Shown here piece by piece: positions 31,701 to 43,769 of a stretch of 64,000 nt of DNA. Under the pieces are notes generated by a model, which ran no database searches, was not told the DNA's origin, and worked only from the letters and a program-made list of their open reading frames with translations. Every line of letters begins with the position of its first letter. The stretch's first letter is position 1. Where the stretch lies: NCBI RefSeq assembly GCF_027625475.1, contig NZ_CP115174.1, positions 4,365,510 to 4,429,509 of the forward strand, read 5' to 3'. The DNA is from Sphingomonas abietis (GTDB lineage Bacteria; Pseudomonadota; Alphaproteobacteria; Sphingomonadales; Sphingomonadaceae). The translations under genes and the position numbers were made by a program.

Positions 31701-32396
31701 TCAATGCTTCAGAACGAACGGCATCCTGACCTGACCCTGCACCATCACCGGCTGACCATTACGCACGATCGGCGCCCAGCGCCACTTGCGGACGGCCGCC
31801 AGCGCCGCCTGATCGAGGCGATCCGATCCGCTGCTCTGGGCAATCGAGATGCCGGCGACCTGCCCTTCCGCCGACAGCAGCACGGCGAGAACCACGGTGC
31901 CCTCCTCATGCAGGCGGCGCGACTCGATCGGATAGCTCGGTGGTTTGGCGAATATCATCTTCGACGACAGGTCGCCGCCGTCGGCCGGCGTCGCCGGCGG
32001 TGCCGCGCTGACCACGGGCGCAGCGGGCGCTGCCGGCGCGACGATGACGCGCGGCGGCGTGGGAACGGGAGCGGTCGCGACCGGGCTGGGCGGCGCCGGC
32101 ACGGTCACGACCGGTGGCGGTGCGACGATCGCCGGTTGCAGCGGCTTGACCGTCACCTGCTTTTGCAGGGGCGCGGGCGGCTGCTTGGGCGGCGGCGGCG
32201 GCGTGATCGCCAGCGAGATCGTCAGCAGATCGTGCTTCGCGATCCGGTTCGGGGTGACGTTCAGCCACAGGAAGCCGGACAGCAACCCGGCGACCATCAG
32301 CAGCGAGGCCAGCGCCGGACCAATCTGGAAACGGCGGGATGCCTGATAGGCCGATCGCTCCCACGCCACGGGCAAGACCCGTTCGGCAACCGCCAT
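31701..32396 (-). CDS. tonB: Energy transducer TonB
   Basis: This 231-residue TonB has a single N-terminal membrane anchor (about residues 20-45), then a periplasmic proline-rich spacer (about 60-135, with PPPPPK and repeated VP/AP steps) and a C-terminal TonB domain (about 150-231) with SYPIESRRLHEEGTVVL and the W-R-W-A-P motif. It transmits proton-motive force to outer-membrane receptors. The ATG at 32396 matches the anchor; the open frame extends to 32663. A Fur-like site lies about 115 bases upstream. No exbB or exbD is in the window. Confidence 0.92.
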   Translation of the reverse strand: MAVAERVLPVAWERSAYQASRRFQIGPALASLLMVAGLLSGFLWLNVTPNRIAKHDLLTISLAITPPPPPKQPPAPLQKQVTVKPLQPAIVAPPPVVTVPAPPSPVATAPVPTPPRVIVAPAAPAAPVVSAAPPATPADGGDLSSKMIFAKPPSYPIESRRLHEEGTVVLAVLLSAEGQVAGISIAQSSGSDRLDQAALAAVRKWRWAPIVRNGQPVMVQGQVRMPFVLKH

Positions 32397-32509
32397 CGAA
32401 GACGATGCCGGCGTCCGGACGTCCTCGCCATCACAGGCGATCGAGGCGGACCTGGTGTCGAAAATCGGACTATCTCCCAAGAGCCAGCCGCGAGACGCCG
32501 CCGAGGCTA

Positions 32510-32526
32510 ATGCGACACGTTCGCAT
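32510..32526. promoter_or_regulatory. Fur-box-like palindrome upstream of tonB
   Basis: ATGCGACACGTTCGCAT has six-base inverted arms (ATGCGA/TCGCAT) around a five-base centre. It shares the GCTAATGCGA start with the site at 38967 and a TGCGA half-site with the site at 35805. It lies between the SEL1 stop and the tonB gene. Confidence 0.45.
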
Positions 32527-32539
32527 AACCCATCCGGAC

Positions 32540-33274
32540 TCACAGGTCGAGGCCTAGTTCGTTCGCCAGCGCGCACAGCCGCGGATCGCTCTGGCGCGCC
32601 AGCCAGGCGCACATCTGCGCCATGAAACGGGGCGTGGCGCTTTCCGGCACGCGGCGCAGCCACCCAAGGGCGTCATCCACCTCGCCGCCTTCGATCAACA
32701 GGCGAGCATGATTGAAGCGACCGCGAAAATCCCCGCCCTCAGCCGCACGGCGATAATGGACGGCCGCCGCGGCGCGGTCCTGCGTCACCGCCCAGCCGTC
32801 TTCGTAAAAGCTGCCGACCATATTGATCGACTTGGCGTGGCCGAGCGCCGCCGCCTTCGCGAACAGGCCGAGCGCGCGCGCCGGATCCTTTTCCACGCCG
32901 TCGCCAAGCGACAGCAGGGTCGCGAGATTATAAAACCCCCAGTCGAGGCCATGATCCGCCGCCGCGCGATACCAGTCCGCAGCACGCGCCGTGTCGATCG
33001 CCGTGCCCCAGCCATGCTCGAGGCAGCGCCCGACCATGTTCATGCCCATCGGGTGCCCGGCCTTGGCGGCCATGCCGAACCAGCGCAGCGCGTCGACGGG
33101 CGAGGGCGGTACGCCATGGCCATCCAGCGCCATCTGGCCGAGGCGGAGCTGCGCCTCGACCGCGCCGCCTTCGGCCGCGACGCGCAACAGCCGCGCCACC
33201 TCTGCCGGTGGGCCTGAAAATGCGTCGCGCAGGGCTTCCGCATTCATGTCGTTGAGGGAAGCAAGGTCGGTCAT
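32540..33274 (-). CDS. SEL1-repeat (TPR-like) protein
   Basis: This 244-residue soluble protein is built of SEL1-type repeats (about residues 25-190): A-x-L-R-L-G-x-M-x-x-x-G-x-G-V, then ALRWFGMAAKAGHP, ARAADWYRAAADHG, ALGLFAKAAALGHA and AAVHYRRAAEGGD. Each has the A-x-x-W/Y/L-x-x-x-A-A-x-x-G signature. No signal peptide is evident. SEL1 proteins are adaptor scaffolds. Members of this kind are often found next to catecholate receptors (with PiuC-like dioxygenases in other bacteria). Here it directly follows the receptor gene, 56 bases away, and is probably co-transcribed with it. Confidence 0.8.
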   Translation of the reverse strand: MTDLASLNDMNAEALRDAFSGPPAEVARLLRVAAEGGAVEAQLRLGQMALDGHGVPPSPVDALRWFGMAAKAGHPMGMNMVGRCLEHGWGTAIDTARAADWYRAAADHGLDWGFYNLATLLSLGDGVEKDPARALGLFAKAAALGHAKSINMVGSFYEDGWAVTQDRAAAAVHYRRAAEGGDFRGRFNHARLLIEGGEVDDALGWLRRVPESATPRFMAQMCAWLARQSDPRLCALANELGLDL

Positions 33275-33330: not shown

Positions 33331-35793
33331 TCAATAGCGGACGCTGATCGTGCCGAGCACGGTGCGGCCCGCCGCCTGGTTGGCGTAGTGCGCGGCATAG
33401 GCCTTGTCGAAATAGCGCTTGTTGCCGACGTTCAGCGCGTTGATCTGCAGCTTGACCATGTCGGTCAACTGGTAGGACGCATTGGCGTCGAAGCGCCAGT
33501 AGCTCGGCACGTAGGTGGCGCGGGTCTTGGTGATCACCACCGCGCCATTCTGGACCGCGCGGGTATCCGAATAGCCACCATAGACCTTCGACATGTAGAT
33601 CGCGCCGCCGCCCAGCGTCAGCTTCGGCGTGATCTTGTAGTTGGTGAAGGTGGTGAAGCTGTTCTTCGGCGTGTTCGGGAAGGCCCTGCCGATGCCGGCC
33701 GACGGCGCCGAGATGCCGCCCGTCACGGTCTGCCCGGAATCGAGGATCTTGGACGGCATGTAGGTGTAGCCGCCGAAGACATTCCACTTGTCGGTGATGT
33801 TGCCGTTGTAGCTGAGCTCGACACCGCGAATGCGGCGCGTGCCGACATAGAGCGCGAGGCCGTTGGCATCGGTCGTGCGGGCGTTGACCGTCTTGGTCTG
33901 GAACAGCGCCAATGACAGGTTGAGATTATTGTCGAGCAGGTTCCACTTCGTACCGACTTCGTAGGAGGTCGTCTTCTGGACCTTGAGCGCGTCGATATCG
34001 ACGGTGGTCTGGCCGCGGCCCGGGGTCAGGCCGTTATCCTCCGCACCCTGGCCGAGGAACGAGCCCGGCGGGACCGCCGCCTTGGACGTGGAGAAGTAGA
34101 TGCTGCCATTGTCCTTGGGCTTCAGCACGACGCCGGCCTGGTAGGTCCAGATATTGTTCTTCTTGGTGCCCCATGTGCGCGCGGCGGTGGAGGTGGCGGC
34201 GAGGCCGGCACTCACGCTGGTCGAATAATGATCGTAGCGACCGCCGAGGTTGACGAGCAGCCAGTCGGTCAGCGTGATCGTGTCGAACAACGACGCGGCA
34301 TAGGTGGTCGAATGCGATAGCGTCTGCGTGATCGGCAGGCTCTTCTGGATCGCGGCGGCGGTGCTGCCGAGATCGCTCGTGGTGCTGACCCAGGGATCGT
34401 TCGGATTCGGATTGCCGACCGGGGTGCAATAGTAAGCCGCGATCGCGGCGGCGGTGCAGCGTGGCGTCAGCGTCGCGCCGCTGGAAAGCGCCGTGCCGGT
34501 CTGCGCGTTCGACACGAAGGTGCCGAATGCCGACTGGAGATGGCTATATTCGAGGCCGCCCGCGATGCTGTGCTTGACGCTGCCGGTGTCGAACTTGCCG
34601 GTCAGGTCGGTCTGGTTGATCAGGCCTTCCGAATAGCCGTAGCGGGTATTGGCGCGCCGCCAGACATAACCGCCCGCGTTCGCCGCAGTGCCCGTGGCAT
34701 TGCCATATACGTCGCCCTGCTGGTCGTCCGGCTGGGACACGATATAGTCCTGCTCGGTGTGCGAGTAGCGCGACGTGTTGCGGATCATGAACCCGTTGTC
34801 GAACTCATGCTGCGCGCGGATGGTGAAATCGTTCACGTTGGTATGGCGGAAGTCGCGATCCTTGAGCCCGTAGAAGGCGCCGCGCGGCACATCGATCTCC
34901 TGCCCACCGAGCGTGGTGTAATGGCTGACCGGAGCCGTCTCCGTGACACCCGCCGGCGCGTTGGCCAGCGTGTAGGTATAAGGCGTGCCCGCATCCGGCA
35001 GTTCGTTGGTATGCAGGTGGTAATAGCTGACGGTCAGGCTGGTCGGCCCGGTCAGCCCGATCTTCACCGACGGTGCGACGCCCCAGCGCTTCTGGAAGAT
35101 CGCATCGCGACCGGCGACGTTCTGGTCGTGATACATCGCGTTCAGGCGGACGCCGACAAATTCGTTGATGGGCTGGTTGATGTCGATCGTGCCGCGCTTG
35201 TAGTCGGCGCTGCCGTAAGTCCCCTCTGCTTCGATGAACCGTTCCGACGTCGGCAGCTTGCTGACGAGGTTGATCGATCCGCCGGCATTGCCGCTGCCGT
35301 TGGTGACGCTGTCCGACCCCTTGACGACCTCGATCGAATCGACGTCGAAGGTCTCGCGGGTCTGCGCGCCGATGTCGCGGACGCCGTCGAGATAGGTCGA
35401 GTTCTGGCTGTCGAAGCCGCGGATGAACGGACGGTCGCCGAGCGGATTGCCGCCTTCGCCGGCGCCCATCGTGATGCCCGGCACGGTGCGCAGCGCCTCG
35501 GCGAGCGTCGCCGACGCGGTATCCTTGATCACCTGCGAGCCGATGACGGTGATCGAGCGCGGGGTATCGATCAGCGGCGCGGTGTATTTCGGCGAATCAA
35601 GCTTATCGGTCTTGTAGCTGCCTTCGGTGATCGCAGTGTCGGTCACCGTCACGCCGCCCAGATTGGTCGATGGCGTGTCGGCCTGGGCCGGCGTCGCCTG
35701 CGCATAGGCCGGGAATGCCGACGAGATCGCTCCGACGCAGCCAAGTGCGAGGAAACTGGAACCGGACATGCGTGTGCGCTGCGATGATAACAT
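33331..35793 (-). CDS. TonB-dependent siderophore receptor (Fiu-like)
   Basis: This 820-residue outer-membrane receptor has a signal peptide (cleavage near AYAQA, about residue 34), a plug domain (about 60-190; RPFIRGFDSQNSTYLDGVRD and the VVKGSDSVTNGSGNAGGSIN motif) and a 22-strand barrel ending in aromatic tyrosine (SVRY). Its length and plug motifs resemble catecholate receptors of the Fiu type. The ATG at 35793 is chosen because AAAGGGG lies five bases upstream; the frame is open to 35841. A Fur-box-like site ends just before the ribosome-binding site, and an 11-base inverted repeat follows it. The siderophore is not known. Confidence 0.92.
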   Translation of the reverse strand: MLSSQRTRMSGSSFLALGCVGAISSAFPAYAQATPAQADTPSTNLGGVTVTDTAITEGSYKTDKLDSPKYTAPLIDTPRSITVIGSQVIKDTASATLAEALRTVPGITMGAGEGGNPLGDRPFIRGFDSQNSTYLDGVRDIGAQTRETFDVDSIEVVKGSDSVTNGSGNAGGSINLVSKLPTSERFIEAEGTYGSADYKRGTIDINQPINEFVGVRLNAMYHDQNVAGRDAIFQKRWGVAPSVKIGLTGPTSLTVSYYHLHTNELPDAGTPYTYTLANAPAGVTETAPVSHYTTLGGQEIDVPRGAFYGLKDRDFRHTNVNDFTIRAQHEFDNGFMIRNTSRYSHTEQDYIVSQPDDQQGDVYGNATGTAANAGGYVWRRANTRYGYSEGLINQTDLTGKFDTGSVKHSIAGGLEYSHLQSAFGTFVSNAQTGTALSSGATLTPRCTAAAIAAYYCTPVGNPNPNDPWVSTTSDLGSTAAAIQKSLPITQTLSHSTTYAASLFDTITLTDWLLVNLGGRYDHYSTSVSAGLAATSTAARTWGTKKNNIWTYQAGVVLKPKDNGSIYFSTSKAAVPPGSFLGQGAEDNGLTPGRGQTTVDIDALKVQKTTSYEVGTKWNLLDNNLNLSLALFQTKTVNARTTDANGLALYVGTRRIRGVELSYNGNITDKWNVFGGYTYMPSKILDSGQTVTGGISAPSAGIGRAFPNTPKNSFTTFTNYKITPKLTLGGGAIYMSKVYGGYSDTRAVQNGAVVITKTRATYVPSYWRFDANASYQLTDMVKLQINALNVGNKRYFDKAYAAHYANQAAGRTVLGTISVRY

Positions 35794-35804
35794 TTGGACC
35801 CCTT

Positions 35805-35819
35805 TGATAGTCATTCGCA
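35805..35819. promoter_or_regulatory. Fur-box-like site upstream of the siderophore receptor
   Basis: TGATAGTCATTCGCA fits the 7-1-7 Fur pattern TGATAAT-N-ATTATCA at 11 of 14 arm positions. It lies 12 bases upstream of the receptor ATG, overlapping where polymerase or ribosome would bind. Fur with Fe2+ would repress here if the site is real. Confidence 0.5.
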
Positions 35820-35855
35820 ATATTGAGACGGCCAATTGCAACTGCGTCTCAATAT
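35820..35855. repeat. Perfect 11-base inverted repeat between apbE and the receptor gene
   Basis: ATATTGAGACG (35820-35830) and CGTCTCAATAT (35845-35855) are perfect inverted repeats with a 14-base spacer. The repeat lies about 30 bases past the apbE stop and next to the Fur-like site. It could be a terminator for the apbE unit (no T-tract follows) or a two-site operator for a receptor activator. Confidence 0.75.
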
Positions 35856-35887: not shown

Positions 35888-36859
35888 TCAGTCTGCCAGC
35901 ATCGCCGCCAGCGCCGGGCTCATGCTCTCCTCGGCGACGCCCCCGGCCAACCTCACGATACGCGCCGCGATGCCGTGAGTGGCGGCCATCGCCAGCGCGT
36001 TTTCGGTGTCGAGAACGGTGAGCGCCGTCGCCCAGGCATCAGCGTCCAGCGCGCGGTCGTGGATCACGCTGACCGACAGCGTGTCGATCGTCGGCAGGCC
36101 GGTGCGTGGTTCGATCGTGTGATCGCCGCGCCGGTAATTGCCGGACGTGGCGACCGCGAGGCCATGCAGGGCGATCCGGAGCGGCGGCAGAGCGGCGCCG
36201 GGCGGGTTTTCGAGATCGACCCACCAGGGATCGCCATCCGGCCGCACCCCGCGCCCTGCCAGCTCGCCGCCGATCTCGACCAGATGATGCCGGATGCCGG
36301 ATGCGCTCAGCAGCTCGGAGACGGCATCGACGGCATGGCCCTTGCCGATGCCCGAGAAATCGAGCGCCAGCCCGCCCGGCTGGCGCAGCCGCGGACCAGC
36401 CGGATCGAAGACGAGGCGGTGCCAGCCTGCGCTGGCCAGCGCCGCAGCGACACGATCGGCGGCGGGCGGCCGGGCAGCCGGCACCGGCCCAAATCCCCAC
36501 AGATTGACGATATCGCCGATGGTCGGATCGAAGGCTCCGCCGGACGCCCTGGCGATGGTTAGGCCATGGGCCACGACATGGGCGAAATCCCGTGGAAGCG
36601 TCAGCCATGTTCCCGCCGCCGCCCGGTTGAAGCGCGACAGGTGCGAGTCTTCGACCCACTGGCTCAACTGCGCCACCAGATCGTCCAGCCGCGCCACGAT
36701 CGATGCCCGAAGGGCAGCGGGATCGGCGATCGGGGGCCGGACATAATGGACGGACCAGCCGGTGCCCATCGTCTCGCCGCCGATCGTCTCCACCGTCGCC
36801 GACGCATCGCGATCGGCAAAGGCGGCGATCGATATCGTCGGCGGCAGGGCGATCCTCAT
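35888..36859 (-). CDS. apbE: FAD:protein FMN transferase ApbE
   Basis: This 323-residue ApbE enzyme attaches FMN from FAD to a threonine in target proteins. Family motifs are MGTGWSVHY (near residue 31), VEDSHLSRFNR, the Mg2+/FAD-binding FSGIGKGHAVD (near 168), EIGGEL, and DHTIEPRTG (near 245) with a DADAWATAL segment. No obvious signal peptide is present, so the site of action is uncertain; ApbE is usually periplasmic. It is the last gene of the PepSY-DUF2271-DUF4198-apbE unit, whose DUF2271 protein carries a matching flavinylation motif. Confidence 0.93.
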   Translation of the reverse strand: MRIALPPTISIAAFADRDASATVETIGGETMGTGWSVHYVRPPIADPAALRASIVARLDDLVAQLSQWVEDSHLSRFNRAAAGTWLTLPRDFAHVVAHGLTIARASGGAFDPTIGDIVNLWGFGPVPAARPPAADRVAAALASAGWHRLVFDPAGPRLRQPGGLALDFSGIGKGHAVDAVSELLSASGIRHHLVEIGGELAGRGVRPDGDPWWVDLENPPGAALPPLRIALHGLAVATSGNYRRGDHTIEPRTGLPTIDTLSVSVIHDRALDADAWATALTVLDTENALAMAATHGIAARIVRLAGGVAEESMSPALAAMLAD

Positions 36860-36869
36860 GACGGCGGGC

Positions 36870-37751
36870 TTACGGCGTCATCACTTCGAGCGTGGTGACG
36901 TAGCTCATCCGGCGCTCGGTGGCGTGCGGCGTGCTGGTCCTGTCGTCGGTCGCGGTGGCGTTCAGCCAATACATGCCGGCGCCGGGCCAGGTGACGGTCA
37001 GCACGCCGCCCGCATCGGTGGTCAGATCGATCGCACCCTCGTCGTTGCGATAGCGCTTGCCGCCGGGGATCACCGTCACCTTCAGGCCGGGCGCCGGCTT
37101 GCCGTCGATCAGGAAGCGGAAGCGCGCCGCCTCGCCCGCGACGAGCTCGTCCGGGTGGGTGATCGGATCGAGTTCGAGGCCCTTGCCGTTCGGCTGGAAC
37201 ACCGTTCTGGTCGGCGCACCGGCGGTGACGAAGATCTCGTTGCGGTTGACCATCTCGGTCAGCTTCACGCCGGTCGCGTTGGCCGGGATGTCCGCGACGG
37301 TCAGCGGCGCGGCGGCGGGGGCGCCTCCCTGCTGCTGCGGCGGCGAGCCGCGACGACCGATCCGCTTCTCCACGCCGTCAACGGTGAAGCTGCCCATCAC
37401 GCTGGACGTCTCCGTCCCGATCTTCCACGTGCCCGGTTTGTCGAGCTCGACGTCGAACACCGACCGATAGCGCTCCTTGGCGGCATTCTGGATCGCACCC
37501 GGCGAACCATCCGGCGCCCACACCTTGATCCCGTCGGTCGGGAGCGGGAAATGATCGGCATAGAACAGGTCGTTCGAAACGGCCGCGTCCACCGAAACCC
37601 AGCTGTCAGATCCCGAAAACACCGTGCCGGAGGGCAGCAGCCACATCCTATGGGCAGAGGCGAGGCTCGGCTGCGCGGCCAGCGCGGCGACGACGAGCAG
37701 GCGTGGGCCAAGCAGGCGGGAAACGAGCGGGCGGAGGCGACGCATCTTCAT
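36870..37751 (-). CDS. DUF4198 exported protein
   Basis: This 293-residue protein has a signal peptide (cleavage after LASA, about residue 33; mature start HRMWLLPSG) and an immunoglobulin-like beta-sandwich body. The DUF4198 family is periplasmic and often found with metal or electron-transfer genes; some members are NikM-like. A Gln/Pro/Gly-rich stretch lies near residue 135. The start at 37751 has AAGGA seven bases upstream; the longer frame (to 38117) is not conserved. It sits between the DUF2271 and apbE genes with 11- and 10-base gaps, so it is in one operon. It may scaffold or bind metal; function unproven. Confidence 0.85.
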   Translation of the reverse strand: MKMRRLRPLVSRLLGPRLLVVAALAAQPSLASAHRMWLLPSGTVFSGSDSWVSVDAAVSNDLFYADHFPLPTDGIKVWAPDGSPGAIQNAAKERYRSVFDVELDKPGTWKIGTETSSVMGSFTVDGVEKRIGRRGSPPQQQGGAPAAAPLTVADIPANATGVKLTEMVNRNEIFVTAGAPTRTVFQPNGKGLELDPITHPDELVAGEAARFRFLIDGKPAPGLKVTVIPGGKRYRNDEGAIDLTTDAGGVLTVTWPGAGMYWLNATATDDRTSTPHATERRMSYVTTLEVMTP

Positions 37752-37762
37752 CGGCCGATCCT

Positions 37763-38254
37763 TCAACGGGCGGAGAGGGTGACGGCACCCAGTTCGGTCT
37801 TGCCGGAGGCATGGGCGGCGCCGGCGGGGATCGTGATCGGCACGGTCACGAGCTCGCGCCCGCCAGTTTCGCGGGCCGCCTCGACGTTGAGGACATAATG
37901 GCCTGCCGGTAACGTCGGCAGCGCGATGGTATGCGGACCCGGCGCCTGAGTCGCGCCGCTGATGCCGTTGGCCGGCAGAGTCAGGCTGCGGCCGCCCTTG
38001 CGCCACCAGGCGCGAAGCTCGGACAGCCATTTGGTGCCGGGTTCGTTGCCCGCTTTGTGGACATCGTACCAGACTGCCAGCGTCTGCGCCGTGCCGCCAC
38101 CGGCCGGCTCCAGCCATATCGCGACATAGGGGCGATGATATTCGGCGACGCTCAGTTGCGGGATGGTGACCGTCACGGTGCCGGCCCCGGTGCCGGCGGC
38201 AACGGCCGGCGCGGCGATCAGGGCGCCCAGCGGCAACAGAGATTTCGAACGCAT
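37763..38254 (-). CDS. DUF2271 protein with ApbE flavinylation motif
   Basis: This 163-residue exported protein has a signal peptide (cleavage near AVAAG, about residue 20) and a beta-rich DUF2271 domain. Residues 96-102 read NGISGAT, close to the ApbE target motif D-x-x-S/T-G-A-T; Thr102 would be the FMN attachment site. The pattern Y-x-x-V-H-K-A-G-N precedes it. It lies 10 bases after the PepSY gene and 11 bases before the DUF4198 gene. It is probably the periplasmic electron carrier of this operon. The flavinylation is inferred from the motif and the adjacent apbE, not shown. Confidence 0.85.
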   Translation of the reverse strand: MRSKSLLPLGALIAAPAVAAGTGAGTVTVTIPQLSVAEYHRPYVAIWLEPAGGGTAQTLAVWYDVHKAGNEPGTKWLSELRAWWRKGGRSLTLPANGISGATQAPGPHTIALPTLPAGHYVLNVEAARETGGRELVTVPITIPAGAAHASGKTELGAVTLSAR

Positions 38255-38264
38255 GGTCTTCCCC

Positions 38265-38921
38265 TCAATGGATGAACAGGATGGCGAGAATGACGGGCAG
38301 CGCGAGCCCTGCGGCGACGATCGGCCAGGTCGCACGCCGGTGCCGGGCGTGCATCTGGAGCAGCAGCAGCCCGGTCAGCGTGAACAAGATGCAGGCGCCG
38401 GCGAACACATCGATGAACCAGAACCAGACGCGCCCGGCGTTGCGGCCCTTGTGGAGATCGTTGAGGTAGGAGATCCAGCCGCGATCGGTGGTCTCTGCGC
38501 TGATCTTGCCGTTCGCCCGCCCGATGCTGACCCAGGCATCGCCGCCGGGCCGCGGCATCGCGACATAGGCCTCGTCATCCGACCATTCGACCGGTCGTCC
38601 GCCCGGATCGAGCCCGACCGCCTGTTTCACCGCCCGCGCGACGGCGGGCGGGAGCGCTGCATCGGCCGTGGCAGGATGCGCCAGTTGGGCGCGAAGCGGC
38701 ACCGTCAATTGCCCCGTCCTGTCGATGACGACCGGCTTGGCGGAAATCGATTCCGCATGGTTGAGGGTGATGCCGGTGATCGCAAACAGCAGCATCAGGA
38801 CGAGCGACAGCGCGGCGCTCATCCAGTGCCAGGTGTGCAGCTGCTTCAGCCACCAACTGCGCCAGCGGCGTCTGGGCTTCGGCCTGGTCTGAGAGGGAGG
38901 GGAAGGAGGCAATGCGTTCAC
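38265..38921 (-). CDS. PepSY-associated transmembrane protein (PiuB-like)
   Basis: This 218-residue inner-membrane protein has an Arg/Lys/Trp-rich N-terminus, a helix at about residues 35-53 (HTWHWMSAALSLVL start), a periplasmic PepSY-like domain (about 60-160) and two C-terminal helices (about 165-185 and 197-216). Histidines at helix ends (HTWHW, NH, NDLHKG) may bind haem. PepSY proteins such as PiuB, FoxB or FecR-linked reductases pass electrons to periplasmic ferric siderophores. The start is a GTG at 38921 with no strong ribosome-binding site. It opens the operon; a Fur-box-like site lies 46 bases upstream. Confidence 0.82.
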   Translation of the reverse strand: MNALPPSPPSQTRPKPRRRWRSWWLKQLHTWHWMSAALSLVLMLLFAITGITLNHAESISAKPVVIDRTGQLTVPLRAQLAHPATADAALPPAVARAVKQAVGLDPGGRPVEWSDDEAYVAMPRPGGDAWVSIGRANGKISAETTDRGWISYLNDLHKGRNAGRVWFWFIDVFAGACILFTLTGLLLLQMHARHRRATWPIVAAGLALPVILAILFIH

Positions 38922-38966
38922 GATAGCGTTTGCCTAGGATGCGCGATCCGTTCCGGCAATAGCTAA

Positions 38967-38981
38967 TGCGAATCGTTTTCC
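38967..38981. promoter_or_regulatory. Fur-box-like site upstream of the PepSY-apbE operon
   Basis: TGCGAATCGTTTTCC shares the TGCGAAT half-site with the receptor site (where it appears on the minus strand) and the preceding GCTAA with the tonB site. It matches the Fur consensus at 9 of 14 arm positions, weaker than the receptor site. The PepSY gene start is 46 bases away. Confidence 0.4.
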
Positions 38982-40790: not shown

Positions 40791-40869
40791 GCCGCCGGGC
40801 CGGGGACATATCGGCTAGGCGACATTATTCTTGGAACAGCGGGCCAACGGGGCCGACGATAAGGATCGG

Positions 40870-41838
40870 ATGGGAATGACGGACGGGATCGGGGCGGACC
40901 TTGCGGCGAGGGCATCGGCCCCGGCACGCCTGACCCACCTCCAGCGGCTCGAGGCGGAATCGATCCACATCCTGCGCGAGGTGGTGTCGGAGGCCGAGCG
41001 CCCGGTGATGCTCTACAGCGTCGGCAAGGATTCGGCGGTGATGCTGCATCTCGCCAAGAAGGCCTTCTATCCGTCGCCGCCGCCCTTCCCGCTGCTCCAT
41101 GTCGATACGACGTGGAAGTTCCAGGCGATGTACGCGCTGCGCGAAAAGGCGGCGCGCGAGGCCGGCATGGAGCTGCTCGTCCACCATAATCCCGAGGCGA
41201 TGGCGCGCGGCATCAATCCGTTCGACCATGGCGCGCTCCACACCGACATGTGGAAGACCGAGGGGCTGAAGCAGGCGCTCGACCAATATGGCTTCGACGC
41301 GGCGTTCGGCGGCGCGCGCCGCGACGAGGAGAAAAGCCGCGCCAAGGAGCGCATCTTCTCCTTCCGATCCGCCTCGCACCGCTGGGATCCCAAGAACCAG
41401 CGGCCCGAGCTGTGGAATCTCTACAATGCCAAGAAGGCGCCCAGAAATCAGGGAGGAGGGGAGAGCATCCGCGTCTTCCCGATCTCCAACTGGACCGAGT
41501 TGGACATCTGGCAATATATCCAGCTCGAGAAGATCGAGATCGTGCCGCTCTATTTCTCCGCCCCGCGCCCGACCGTCGAGCGCGACGGGATGCTGCTGAT
41601 GGTCGATGACGAGCGCTTCCGGCTGAAGCCCGGCGAGGAGCCGGTGATGCGCTCCATCCGCTTCCGCACGCTCGGCTGCTACCCGCTGACCGGCGCCGTC
41701 GAGAGCGAGGCGGCGACGCTGAGCGCCGTGATCCAGGAGATGCTGCTCACCACCACCTCCGAGCGGCAGGGCCGCGCGATCGACAAGGACGAAGGCGGCG
41801 CCGGCATGGAGAAGAAGAAGCAGGAGGGCTATTTCTGA
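40870..41838 (+). CDS. cysD: Sulfate adenylyltransferase subunit 2
   Basis: This 322-residue ATP-pyrophosphatase-type catalytic subunit makes APS from ATP and sulfate, driven by the CysN GTPase. The PP-loop [13 protein letters not shown] (near residue 50), [30 protein letters not shown] and the C-terminal [11 protein letters not shown] are all typical. The ATG at 40870 follows AAGGA; another ATG lies at 40876, and the frame is open to a TTG at 40831. It overlaps cysNC as TGATG. It is the first gene of cysD-cysNC-cysQ. Confidence 0.97.
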
Positions 41839-43769
41839 TGACCCGGCAGGATTCCTCCTACCAGACCGACGCGCTGATCGCCGAGGACATCGACGCCTAT
41901 CTGGCGCAGCACCAGCATAAGAGCCTGCTGCGCTTCATCACCTGCGGATCGGTGGACGACGGAAAGTCGACCCTGATCGGGCGGCTGCTTTATGACTCGA
42001 AGATGATCTTCGAGGATCAGCTGGCGGCGCTCGAGGCGGATTCGAGGCGCGTCGGCACCCAGGGCCAGAATATCGATTTCGCGCTGCTGGTCGACGGCCT
42101 CGCCGCCGAGCGCGAGCAGGGCATCACCATCGACGTCGCCTATCGCTTCTTCTCCACCGAGAAGCGCAAGTTCATCGTCGCCGACACCCCCGGCCACGAA
42201 CAATATACCCGCAACATGGTGACCGGCGCCTCCACCGCCGACCTCGCCGTGATCCTGATCGACGCGCGCAAGGGCGTGCTGACCCAGACCCGCCGCCATT
42301 CCTACCTCGCCCATCTGATCGGGGTGCGGCATCTGGTGCTGGCGGTGAACAAGATGGATCTGGTCGGCTACGATCAGGCCACCTACGATGCGATCGTCGC
42401 CGACTATCGCGCCTTCGCCGACAGCATCGGGATCGCACGCTTCGTGCCGATGCCGATCTCCGGCTTCATGGGCGACAACATCACCACCCGAAGCGCGAAC
42501 ACGCCCTGGTATGACGGCCCGACCCTGATCGCGCATCTCGAGACGGTCGAGGTCGATCAGGATGCGACCGCGGCACAGCCCTTCCGCATGCCGGTGCAGT
42601 GGGTCAACCGGCCCAATCTCGATTTCCGCGGCTTTGCCGGGTTGATCGCCGCCGGCACGGTGAAGCCGGGCGATCCGGTGCGGCTACTGCCGTCGGGCAA
42701 GACCTCGACCATCGCGCGCATCGTCACGATGGACGGCGATCTGGAGCAAGCGGTCGCCGGCCAGTCGGTGACGCTGACGCTGGCCGACGAGGTCGATTGC
42801 TCGCGCGGCGACGTGATCGCCGCTGCCGCTGCCCCGCCGCAGGCGGCCGACCAGTTCGAGGCGACGATCGTGTGGATGGCGGAGGAGGCGATGCTGCCCG
42901 GCCGCTCCTACTGGCTGAAGCTCGCCACCCAGACGGTGACGGCGCAGGTACAGGCGCCCAAATACCAGATCAACGTCAACAGCATGGAGAAGCTCGCGGC
43001 GAAGACGCTGGAGCTGAACGCGATCGGCGTCGCCAATCTCTCCACCGACAAGCCGCTCGTCTACGAGCCTTATGCGGACGATCGCGCGGGGCTGAACAAG
43101 ACATTGGGCGGCTTCATCCTGATCGACAAGATCACCAATGCCACGGTGGCGGCCGGCATGATCCATTTCGCGCTGCGCCGGGCCGAGAATGTCCACTGGC
43201 AGGCGATGGATGTCGCGCGCGAGCGCCGCTCCGCGCTCAAGAACCAGAAGCCGGCGGTGGTGTGGCTGACCGGGCTTTCGGGCGCCGGCAAGTCGACCAT
43301 CGCCAATCTGGTCGATCGCAAGCTCACCCGGATGAACCGCCACAGCTTCCTGCTCGATGGCGACAATGTCCGCCACGGCCTCAACCGCGATCTCGGCTTC
43401 ACCGATGCCGATCGGGTGGAGAATATCCGCCGCGTCGGCGAGGTCGCGCGGTTGATGGCCGATTCGGGCCTGATCGTGCTCACCGCCTTCATCTCGCCGT
43501 TCCGCGCCGAGCGCGAGATGGTGCGCAAGATGATGGCGGATGGCGAGTTCATCGAGGTCCATATCGACACCACGCTCGCCGATGCCGAGGCGCGCGACGT
43601 GAAGGGCCTCTATGCCAAGGCGCGGGCCGGGCAGCTCAAGAACTTCACCGGCATCGACAGCCCCTATGAGGCACCGGCAACGCCGGAGATCCGCATCGAT
43701 ACCAGCGCGATGACGGCGGATGCCGCCGCCGATCTGATCGTCGAGCATCTGCTGGCGCTCGAACGATGA
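41838..43769 (+). CDS. cysNC: Bifunctional sulfate adenylyltransferase subunit 1 / APS kinase
   Basis: This 643-residue fusion has an N-terminal EF-Tu-like GTPase (about residues 30-440: [26 protein letters not shown]) that drives APS formation with CysD. The C-terminal APS kinase (about 455-643) has Walker A GLSGAGKS near residue 479, [10 protein letters not shown] and the [10 protein letters not shown] segment, and converts APS to PAPS. The fusion is common in proteobacteria. It overlaps both cysD and cysQ, so the three are translationally coupled. No APS/PAPS reductase is in the window. Confidence 0.97.

Follow-up and report, generated by a model that had tools for sequence, protein, structure and literature searches.

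The window analyzed here, a stretch of 64,000 nucleotides from the Sphingomonas abietis contig NZ_CP115174.1 (positions 4,365,510 to 4,429,509), carries an operon on its minus strand that encodes a PepSY membrane protein, an exported DUF2271 protein, an exported DUF4198 protein and the flavin transferase ApbE. The operon is a genuine, unexceptional PepSY-like flavinylation system, which adds one further genome to a published type. Its ApbE belongs to a group of enzymes that mostly lack a clear export signal while the DUF2271 protein carries one, which hints at attachment of flavin mononucleotide (FMN) ahead of export. The operon is made up of the following features, given in window coordinates:

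38265..38921, minus strand: gene for a PepSY_TM_like_2 membrane protein, GTG start, 218 aa (PF16357, 1e-76; PF03929, 1.4e-8)
37763..38254, minus strand: DUF2271 gene, 163 aa, ATG at 38254 (PF10029, 3.2e-39)
37949..37969, minus strand: NGISGAT codons, residues 96-102 of the DUF2271 protein counted from ATG 38254
36870..37751, minus strand: DUF4198 gene, exported beta-sandwich protein, 293 aa, predicted mature N-terminal His at residue 34 (PF10670, 1.4e-52)
35888..36859, minus strand: ApbE gene, flavin adenine dinucleotide (FAD):protein FMN transferase, 323 aa (PF02424, 4.5e-71)

Gene content and the flavinylation motif

The gaps between the PepSY, DUF2271, DUF4198 and ApbE genes measure 10, 11 and 10 bases on a single strand, and the Pfam matches of all four proteins far exceed the family cut-offs (E-values from 3.2e-39 to 1e-76); both coordinates and domains agree with the initial annotation, which had described four minus-strand genes spaced by about 10 bases. 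The same four families characterize the systems of Meheust (2021), where PepSY-like flavinylation clusters with DUF2271, DUF4198 and ApbE were defined and 3220 such clusters were counted, 2833 with DUF2271, 1500 with DUF4198 and 231 with a TonB receptor (PMC8238504). That definition places a PepSY gene within five genes of DUF2271 or ApbE, and here the PF16357/PF03929 gene adjoins DUF2271. It further combines a DUF2271 protein containing [S/T]GA[S/T] with ApbE in the cluster, which corresponds to SGAT at residues 99-102 and to ApbE two genes downstream, and a signal peptide encoded by one or more of the target genes, for which all 119 close DUF2271 homologues lie above the line of a hydrophobicity score (home-made, not SignalP).

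For comparison, 88 loci were assembled, namely the window and 87 neighborhoods around DUF2271 matches above the cut-off, among which the window's own order is over-represented. PepSY, DUF4198 and ApbE all occur within approximately 6.5 kb of DUF2271 in 43 of the 88 loci, and the complete set is present in 14 of the 15 loci from the window's own family; thus, the four-gene grouping is not due to chance. Taken singly, the PepSY type was found at 62 loci, DUF4198 at 66, ApbE at 64 and the type of receptor that lies beside the window operon at 47, although the profiles were made from the window's own proteins and undercount other PepSY and receptor types. Nearly all species-named homologues come from Sphingomonas, and one is from Rhizorhabdus. 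The genome itself has one DUF2271, one ApbE and one DUF4198, and a search of it gave no FMN_bind and no NqrB/RnfD protein (DUF3570 was left unsearched).

A recount placed NGISGAT at the same residues of the DUF2271 protein as had been annotated, and Thr102 as its predicted FMN site is well supported. Conservation of this residue among homologues, which the initial annotation had proposed as a check, is complete in that the final motif residue is Thr (69 loci) or Ser (19 loci) throughout the 88 loci, and in a published experiment on a homologue the cognate ApbE flavinylated DUF2271, a modification that was lost on exchange of Thr for Ala (PMC8238504). Compared with the [S/T]GA[S/T] rule of Meheust, only 51 of the 88 loci satisfy the strict motif and the remainder retain the final Thr/Ser, suggesting that the attachment residue alone is fixed, within a motif looser than the printed rule. 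Position 6 of the motif is Ala at 65 loci, Pro at 21 and Glu at 2, and rule-breaking motifs such as SGPT, TGPT, TSPT, TQPT, SSAT and SGET are found at loci that hold ApbE (e.g., L028, L030, L031, L033, L034, L041, L053, L057, L063 and L111). All 119 close DUF2271 homologues contain [DNS]G[IV]SGAT, with D at the first position in 76, N in 42 and S in 1; the N for D in the window is normal variation.

The genome survey of DUF2271 and ApbE that had likewise been proposed shows the expected association. Among 397 genomes of the same phylum, ApbE is present in all 75 that have a DUF2271 above the cut-off and in 208 of the 322 others (Fisher 4.7e-13; the genomes are related and not independent, and the Fisher, Mann-Whitney and Wilcoxon values in this work ignore relatedness). 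The same-family genomes among those listed (n=21) divide into eight with DUF2271, all of which have ApbE, and 13 without DUF2271, none of which does. Natural fusions also occur among the 88 loci, seven of ApbE with DUF2271 and one of PepSY with DUF2271.

Some further observations concern the DUF2271 family itself. A search of solved structures with DUF2271 returned chance matches only. Export of DUF2271 by the twin-arginine translocation pathway, which would let a folded flavoprotein through, was considered and rejected, as [ST]RR-x-hydrophobic is found in none of 81 pre-domain stretches. Weak, partial matches to the DUF2271 profile below the cut-off were seen in several genomes (G004, G018, G416, G466, G238, G381 and others) in frames of approximately 197-349 aa; they represent another family or a distant relative and were excluded from every count.

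The N-terminus of ApbE and the site of flavinylation

The window ApbE is the sole ApbE found in its genome and matches solved FAD:protein FMN transferases (5mgy, 5.3e-49, the best; 3pnd, 4.5e-43). ApbE has been reviewed as typically membrane-anchored and periplasmic (PMC12052999). No lipobox is present in the window ApbE, whose N-terminus, MRIALPPTISIAAFADRDASATVETIGG, has no Cys. An earlier start codon that might add a signal was sought and discarded because a stop codon lies upstream with merely RRKPAV between. The absence of a clear signal is a point that the initial annotation overlooked.

Signals were scored by simple hydrophobicity with a line at 1.5 and start offsets below 20 for the 88-locus set and below 24 for the controls and the 119 homologues. 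Among the stand-alone ApbEs at DUF2271 loci, 52 of 57 have no signal-like N-terminus, whereas 39 of 40 control ApbEs (the exception being L134) and all seven ApbE-DUF2271 fusions pass. Close homologues of the window ApbE fall below the line in 108 of 119 cases, against none of the 119 DUF2271 homologues. These ApbEs share a conserved start with charged residues, approximately MRIALPPxIDxAAFAARDPxA (residues 1-30 of the window ApbE aligned with 119 homologues), and this recurring stretch does not look like a signal peptide.

In a maximum-likelihood tree of 104 ApbEs, rooted at the midpoint only, the 57 linked stand-alone enzymes share one side of a branch (97/91), and the seven fused ApbEs form a separate branch (100/100). 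The linked stand-alone ApbE is the only ApbE found in 33 genomes, the window's included, and lies below the signal line in 30 of them, the window ApbE being among the three that narrowly exceed it. ApbE is absent from 24 loci, which come from 23 genomes; ApbEs were fetched from elsewhere in 21 of these genomes (G268 and G321 were not covered), and at least one passes in each. It might be argued that the linked ApbE resides in the cytoplasm to serve a true substrate there, with DUF2271 unmodified or modified incidentally in this organism, and ApbEs without a signal are indeed known to modify soluble fumarate reductases of the cytoplasm (PMC12052999). However, the clustering of the linked enzymes on the tree, the presence of ApbE in all 75 DUF2271 genomes, the invariably retained attachment residue and the published flavinylation of a DUF2271 by its cognate enzyme make this explanation very unlikely.

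The simplest reading of the mismatch between the addresses of ApbE and DUF2271, and the one we prefer on these hints, is flavinylation before export: an ApbE group dedicated to DUF2271 may work in the cytoplasm and load FMN onto the precursor, which would then be exported by Sec. We put this forward tentatively, at slightly less than even chances, and several points weigh against it. The window ApbE itself scores 1.64, borderline above the line, and is one of the five linked enzymes that pass, together with L026, L027, L044 and L079; L044, a member of the same ApbE group, has the only clear lipoprotein signal among them. Eleven of the 119 close homologues are also above the line. The score has misses of its own, since the signal of the window DUF4198 fails (65 of 66 DUF4198 proteins pass) and DUF2271 passes in 78 of the 88 loci, the eight lowest comprising L065, L090, L101 and five ApbE fusions that have their signal far upstream. 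Moreover, the 40 control ApbEs were hand-picked from the listed matches, which are ordered by descending score.

The main rival draws on the scores of the window ApbE and of the 11 homologues, on the signal of L044, on the passing fusions and on the typical periplasmic location of ApbE: flavinylation would be periplasmic, ApbE being exported by a signal that the score misses or by another, unseen route, and there would be no localization puzzle. We consider it unlikely in view of the charged recurring start of the homologues below the line, the contrast between linked and control enzymes, and the upstream stop codon in the window. In addition, a third Paracoccus ApbE, Pden_3291, whether or not it is linked to DUF2271, has been termed predicted cytoplasmic (PMC7660919). 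Within the accessible literature, no statement on a signal-less ApbE with an exported substrate was found, and the accessible part of PMC8238504, without the supplementary tables that hold signal predictions, does not discuss a signal-less ApbE beside an exported DUF2271.

A single exploratory comparison of signal hydrophobicity was made among the related genomes, limited to rows that have an uncharged stretch. The DUF2271 signal is less hydrophobic than the DUF4198 signal of its operon only where a stand-alone ApbE is linked: in 38 such operons, which exclude L044 but include the other four borderline cases, the values were 2.06 for DUF2271 and 2.64 for DUF4198 (p 1.3e-6); in 19 other operons, with no stand-alone ApbE or with L044, they were 2.24 and 2.24 (p 0.87).

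Electron path, iron control and metal handling

The PepSY protein is probably a heme-binding electron carrier, as judged from its conserved histidines. Across 62 PepSY proteins, His32 and His157 are invariant (62/62 each), and His55, His218 and His191 are kept in 56, 52 and 43, respectively. Such a pattern would be compatible with a heme site on either side of the membrane, as in FoxB and HiuB, with the pairing of ligands proposed by us; two-heme histidine sites have been reported for FoxB (PMC11334425) and modeled for HiuB (PMC13001220). Both are PepSY membrane proteins that have histidines for two hemes and are tied to siderophore receptors. The window protein, at 218 aa, belongs to the short PF16357 type and its DUF2271 partner is encoded by a gene of its own, whereas HiuB, in the accessible part of its description, has no such partner named.

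The assignment of PepSY as the partner of DUF2271 in the initial annotation is supported by natural PepSY-DUF2271 fusions, which make up 53 of the 120 listed matches to the protein of L070, itself included. A structural model of the fusion has a mean predicted local distance difference test score (pLDDT) of 84, with a motif loop (270-278) below 50. A fold search with it returned rows that were nearly all from the DUF2271 half or chance, and FoxB (7ABW) was unlisted, which is uninformative either way. A search of solved structures with PepSY gave chance matches only. The following points count against our overall reading of the operon. How PepSY and DUF2271 sit relative to each other in the model is unsure (predicted template modeling score, pTM, 0.60). 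HiuB supports the use of ferrioxamine, and the accessible part of PMC13001220 names no flavinylated partner for it; DUF2271 could therefore be dispensable. Finally, the operon lacks a gene for a cytoplasmic electron donor, unlike the Caulobacter crescentus counterpart, CC_3059-CC_3063, in which PepSY-family, DUF2271, DUF4198 and ApbE genes follow in the same order as in the window and a fifth gene (CC_3063) encodes a flavoprotein resembling reduced nicotinamide adenine dinucleotide phosphate (NADPH) sulfite reductase, and unlike locus L086.

A second architecture is seen at 18 loci (L086-L100, L102, L103 and L112), where the DUF2271 motif ends in Ser (GAS). ApbE is present in 15 of them, and the window-built profiles detect neither the short PepSY nor DUF4198. 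At L086 (6912-9119), a 735-aa protein with PepSY, flavodoxin and FAD/NAD reductase-like parts (domains read by eye) lies between DUF2271 and ApbE.

Around the operon, a receptor gene lies downstream and a nitronate-monooxygenase-like gene upstream, across the promoter. Scans with the classical Escherichia coli Fur 19-mer consensus gave the first two of the following features, and the third is the receptor gene:

38962..38980: Fur-box-like site, 14/19 to the consensus, 41 bases upstream of the PepSY start
35806..35824: second Fur-box-like site, 13/19, upstream of the TonB-dependent receptor
33331..35793, minus strand: TonB-dependent siderophore-type receptor (PF00593, PF07715), start uncertain, alternative at 35841

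When the 300 bases upstream were dinucleotide-shuffled 1000 times, the 14/19 score was reached in 5 shuffles, and only four places in the whole window reach at least 13/19. Similarly, the 62 regions preceding PepSY genes have a mean best Fur score of 12.24/19 compared with 10.26 for shuffled sequence; 31 of the 62 have an observed score that no more than 5% of 50 shuffles attain. The Caulobacter counterpart is reported to be Fur-repressed, with strong induction both when iron is limiting and when fur is mutated (PMC3751524), and its transposon mutants are weak under ethylenediaminetetraacetic acid (PMC11870441); in Alteromonas, DUF2271 and DUF4198 genes adjoin iron-responsive receptors (PMC7190382). 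A FeoB-type protein is also present in the genome (best match 198.6 bits, 713-aa frame).

The window receptor passes the siderophore-receptor model TIGR01783 (228.7 vs 223.5), and its best equivalog is Fiu (437 bits, under the cut-off of 686). As it has a Fur-like box of its own, operon and receptor are probably separate transcription units of one regulon. The initial annotation had linked the operon to iron and to siderophores delivered by the adjacent receptor. The first part stands on the Fur-like boxes, the FeoB-type protein and the Caulobacter counterpart; the second is weakened by the receptor's own box and by its presence, in either orientation, near only 47 of the 88 loci, so that it is not a constant neighbor. 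Downstream of the receptor, genes for a Sel1-repeat protein and for TonB (31701-33274, minus strand) likely belong to an outer-membrane uptake set. The sulfate-activation genes cysD and cysNC, the latter a fusion (40831-43769, plus strand), are ordinary.

DUF4198 is probably a metal-binding protein with an N-terminal histidine, a point absent from the initial annotation: His comes first after the predicted signal in 66 of 66 aligned homologues (cleavage site read by eye). Candidates for a second His ligand, as possible counterparts of His18 of 9GCB, are His34 (45/62) and His166 (57/62). The DUF4198 profile missed 9GCB in the Protein Data Bank by sequence, and the structure was found by fold only; IsDUF4198 (9GCB) and Zcp (9MHI to 9MHO) are 15-17% identical to the operon-type DUF4198. 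The stored molecule name of entries 9mhi to 9mho, phosphoribosylglycinamide formyltransferase, looks wrong, as their titles say Zcp and metals.

These relatives weigh against iron as the metal, as the published DUF4198 metal is nickel, with a dissociation constant of 18 nM (PMC12537917), the Zcp entries hold zinc, copper and cobalt, and none of the published DUF4198/Zcp metals is iron. The operon might accordingly serve nickel, cobalt, copper or zinc, with DUF4198 as a specific carrier and the flavin chain keeping the metal or its site reduced. This is improbable, however, considering the Fur-like boxes at operon and receptor, the induction of the Caulobacter counterpart, the absence of a urease alpha subunit from the genome (other nickel enzymes were not searched) and the fact that Ni(II) and Zn(II) do not need reduction. 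Iron is not mentioned in the main text of PMC12537917 and was perhaps never tried there.

Proposed mechanism and its implications

We regard the operon as a probable Fur-controlled, PepSY-type flavinylation system that brings electrons from the inner membrane to a periplasmic metal, most likely ferric iron. The mechanism in the initial annotation, in which electrons pass through PepSY to flavinylated DUF2271 and then to iron, is plausible and mostly in print already, since iron reduction, iron uptake and release of siderophore iron were proposed for PepSY-like systems (PMC8238504), a precedent that the initial annotation had not taken into account. The neighboring ApbE would very likely move FMN from FAD to Thr102 of DUF2271. 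The electron flow and the metal role that follow are wholly inferred by us: electrons would probably pass from PepSY heme, ligated by the conserved histidines, to the flavin of DUF2271; the reduced FMN-DUF2271 would, on balance, be expected to reduce Fe(III), free or siderophore-bound, with Fe(II) imported by a carrier such as FeoB; and DUF4198 might, with roughly even chances, bind some metal ion through its mature N-terminal His and handle it at the reduction or uptake step.

In the accessible parts of the flavinylation papers, no role is assigned to DUF4198, and its conserved N-terminal His would mark it as the metal-handling partner of the operon. Of all its features, only the signal-less ApbE group may come as a surprise to specialists. 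If flavinylation before export is true, DUF2271 would be a flavoprotein of the periplasm that receives its covalent cofactor ahead of Sec, no periplasmic supply of FAD would be needed, and Sec would be able to carry a covalently flavinylated chain.

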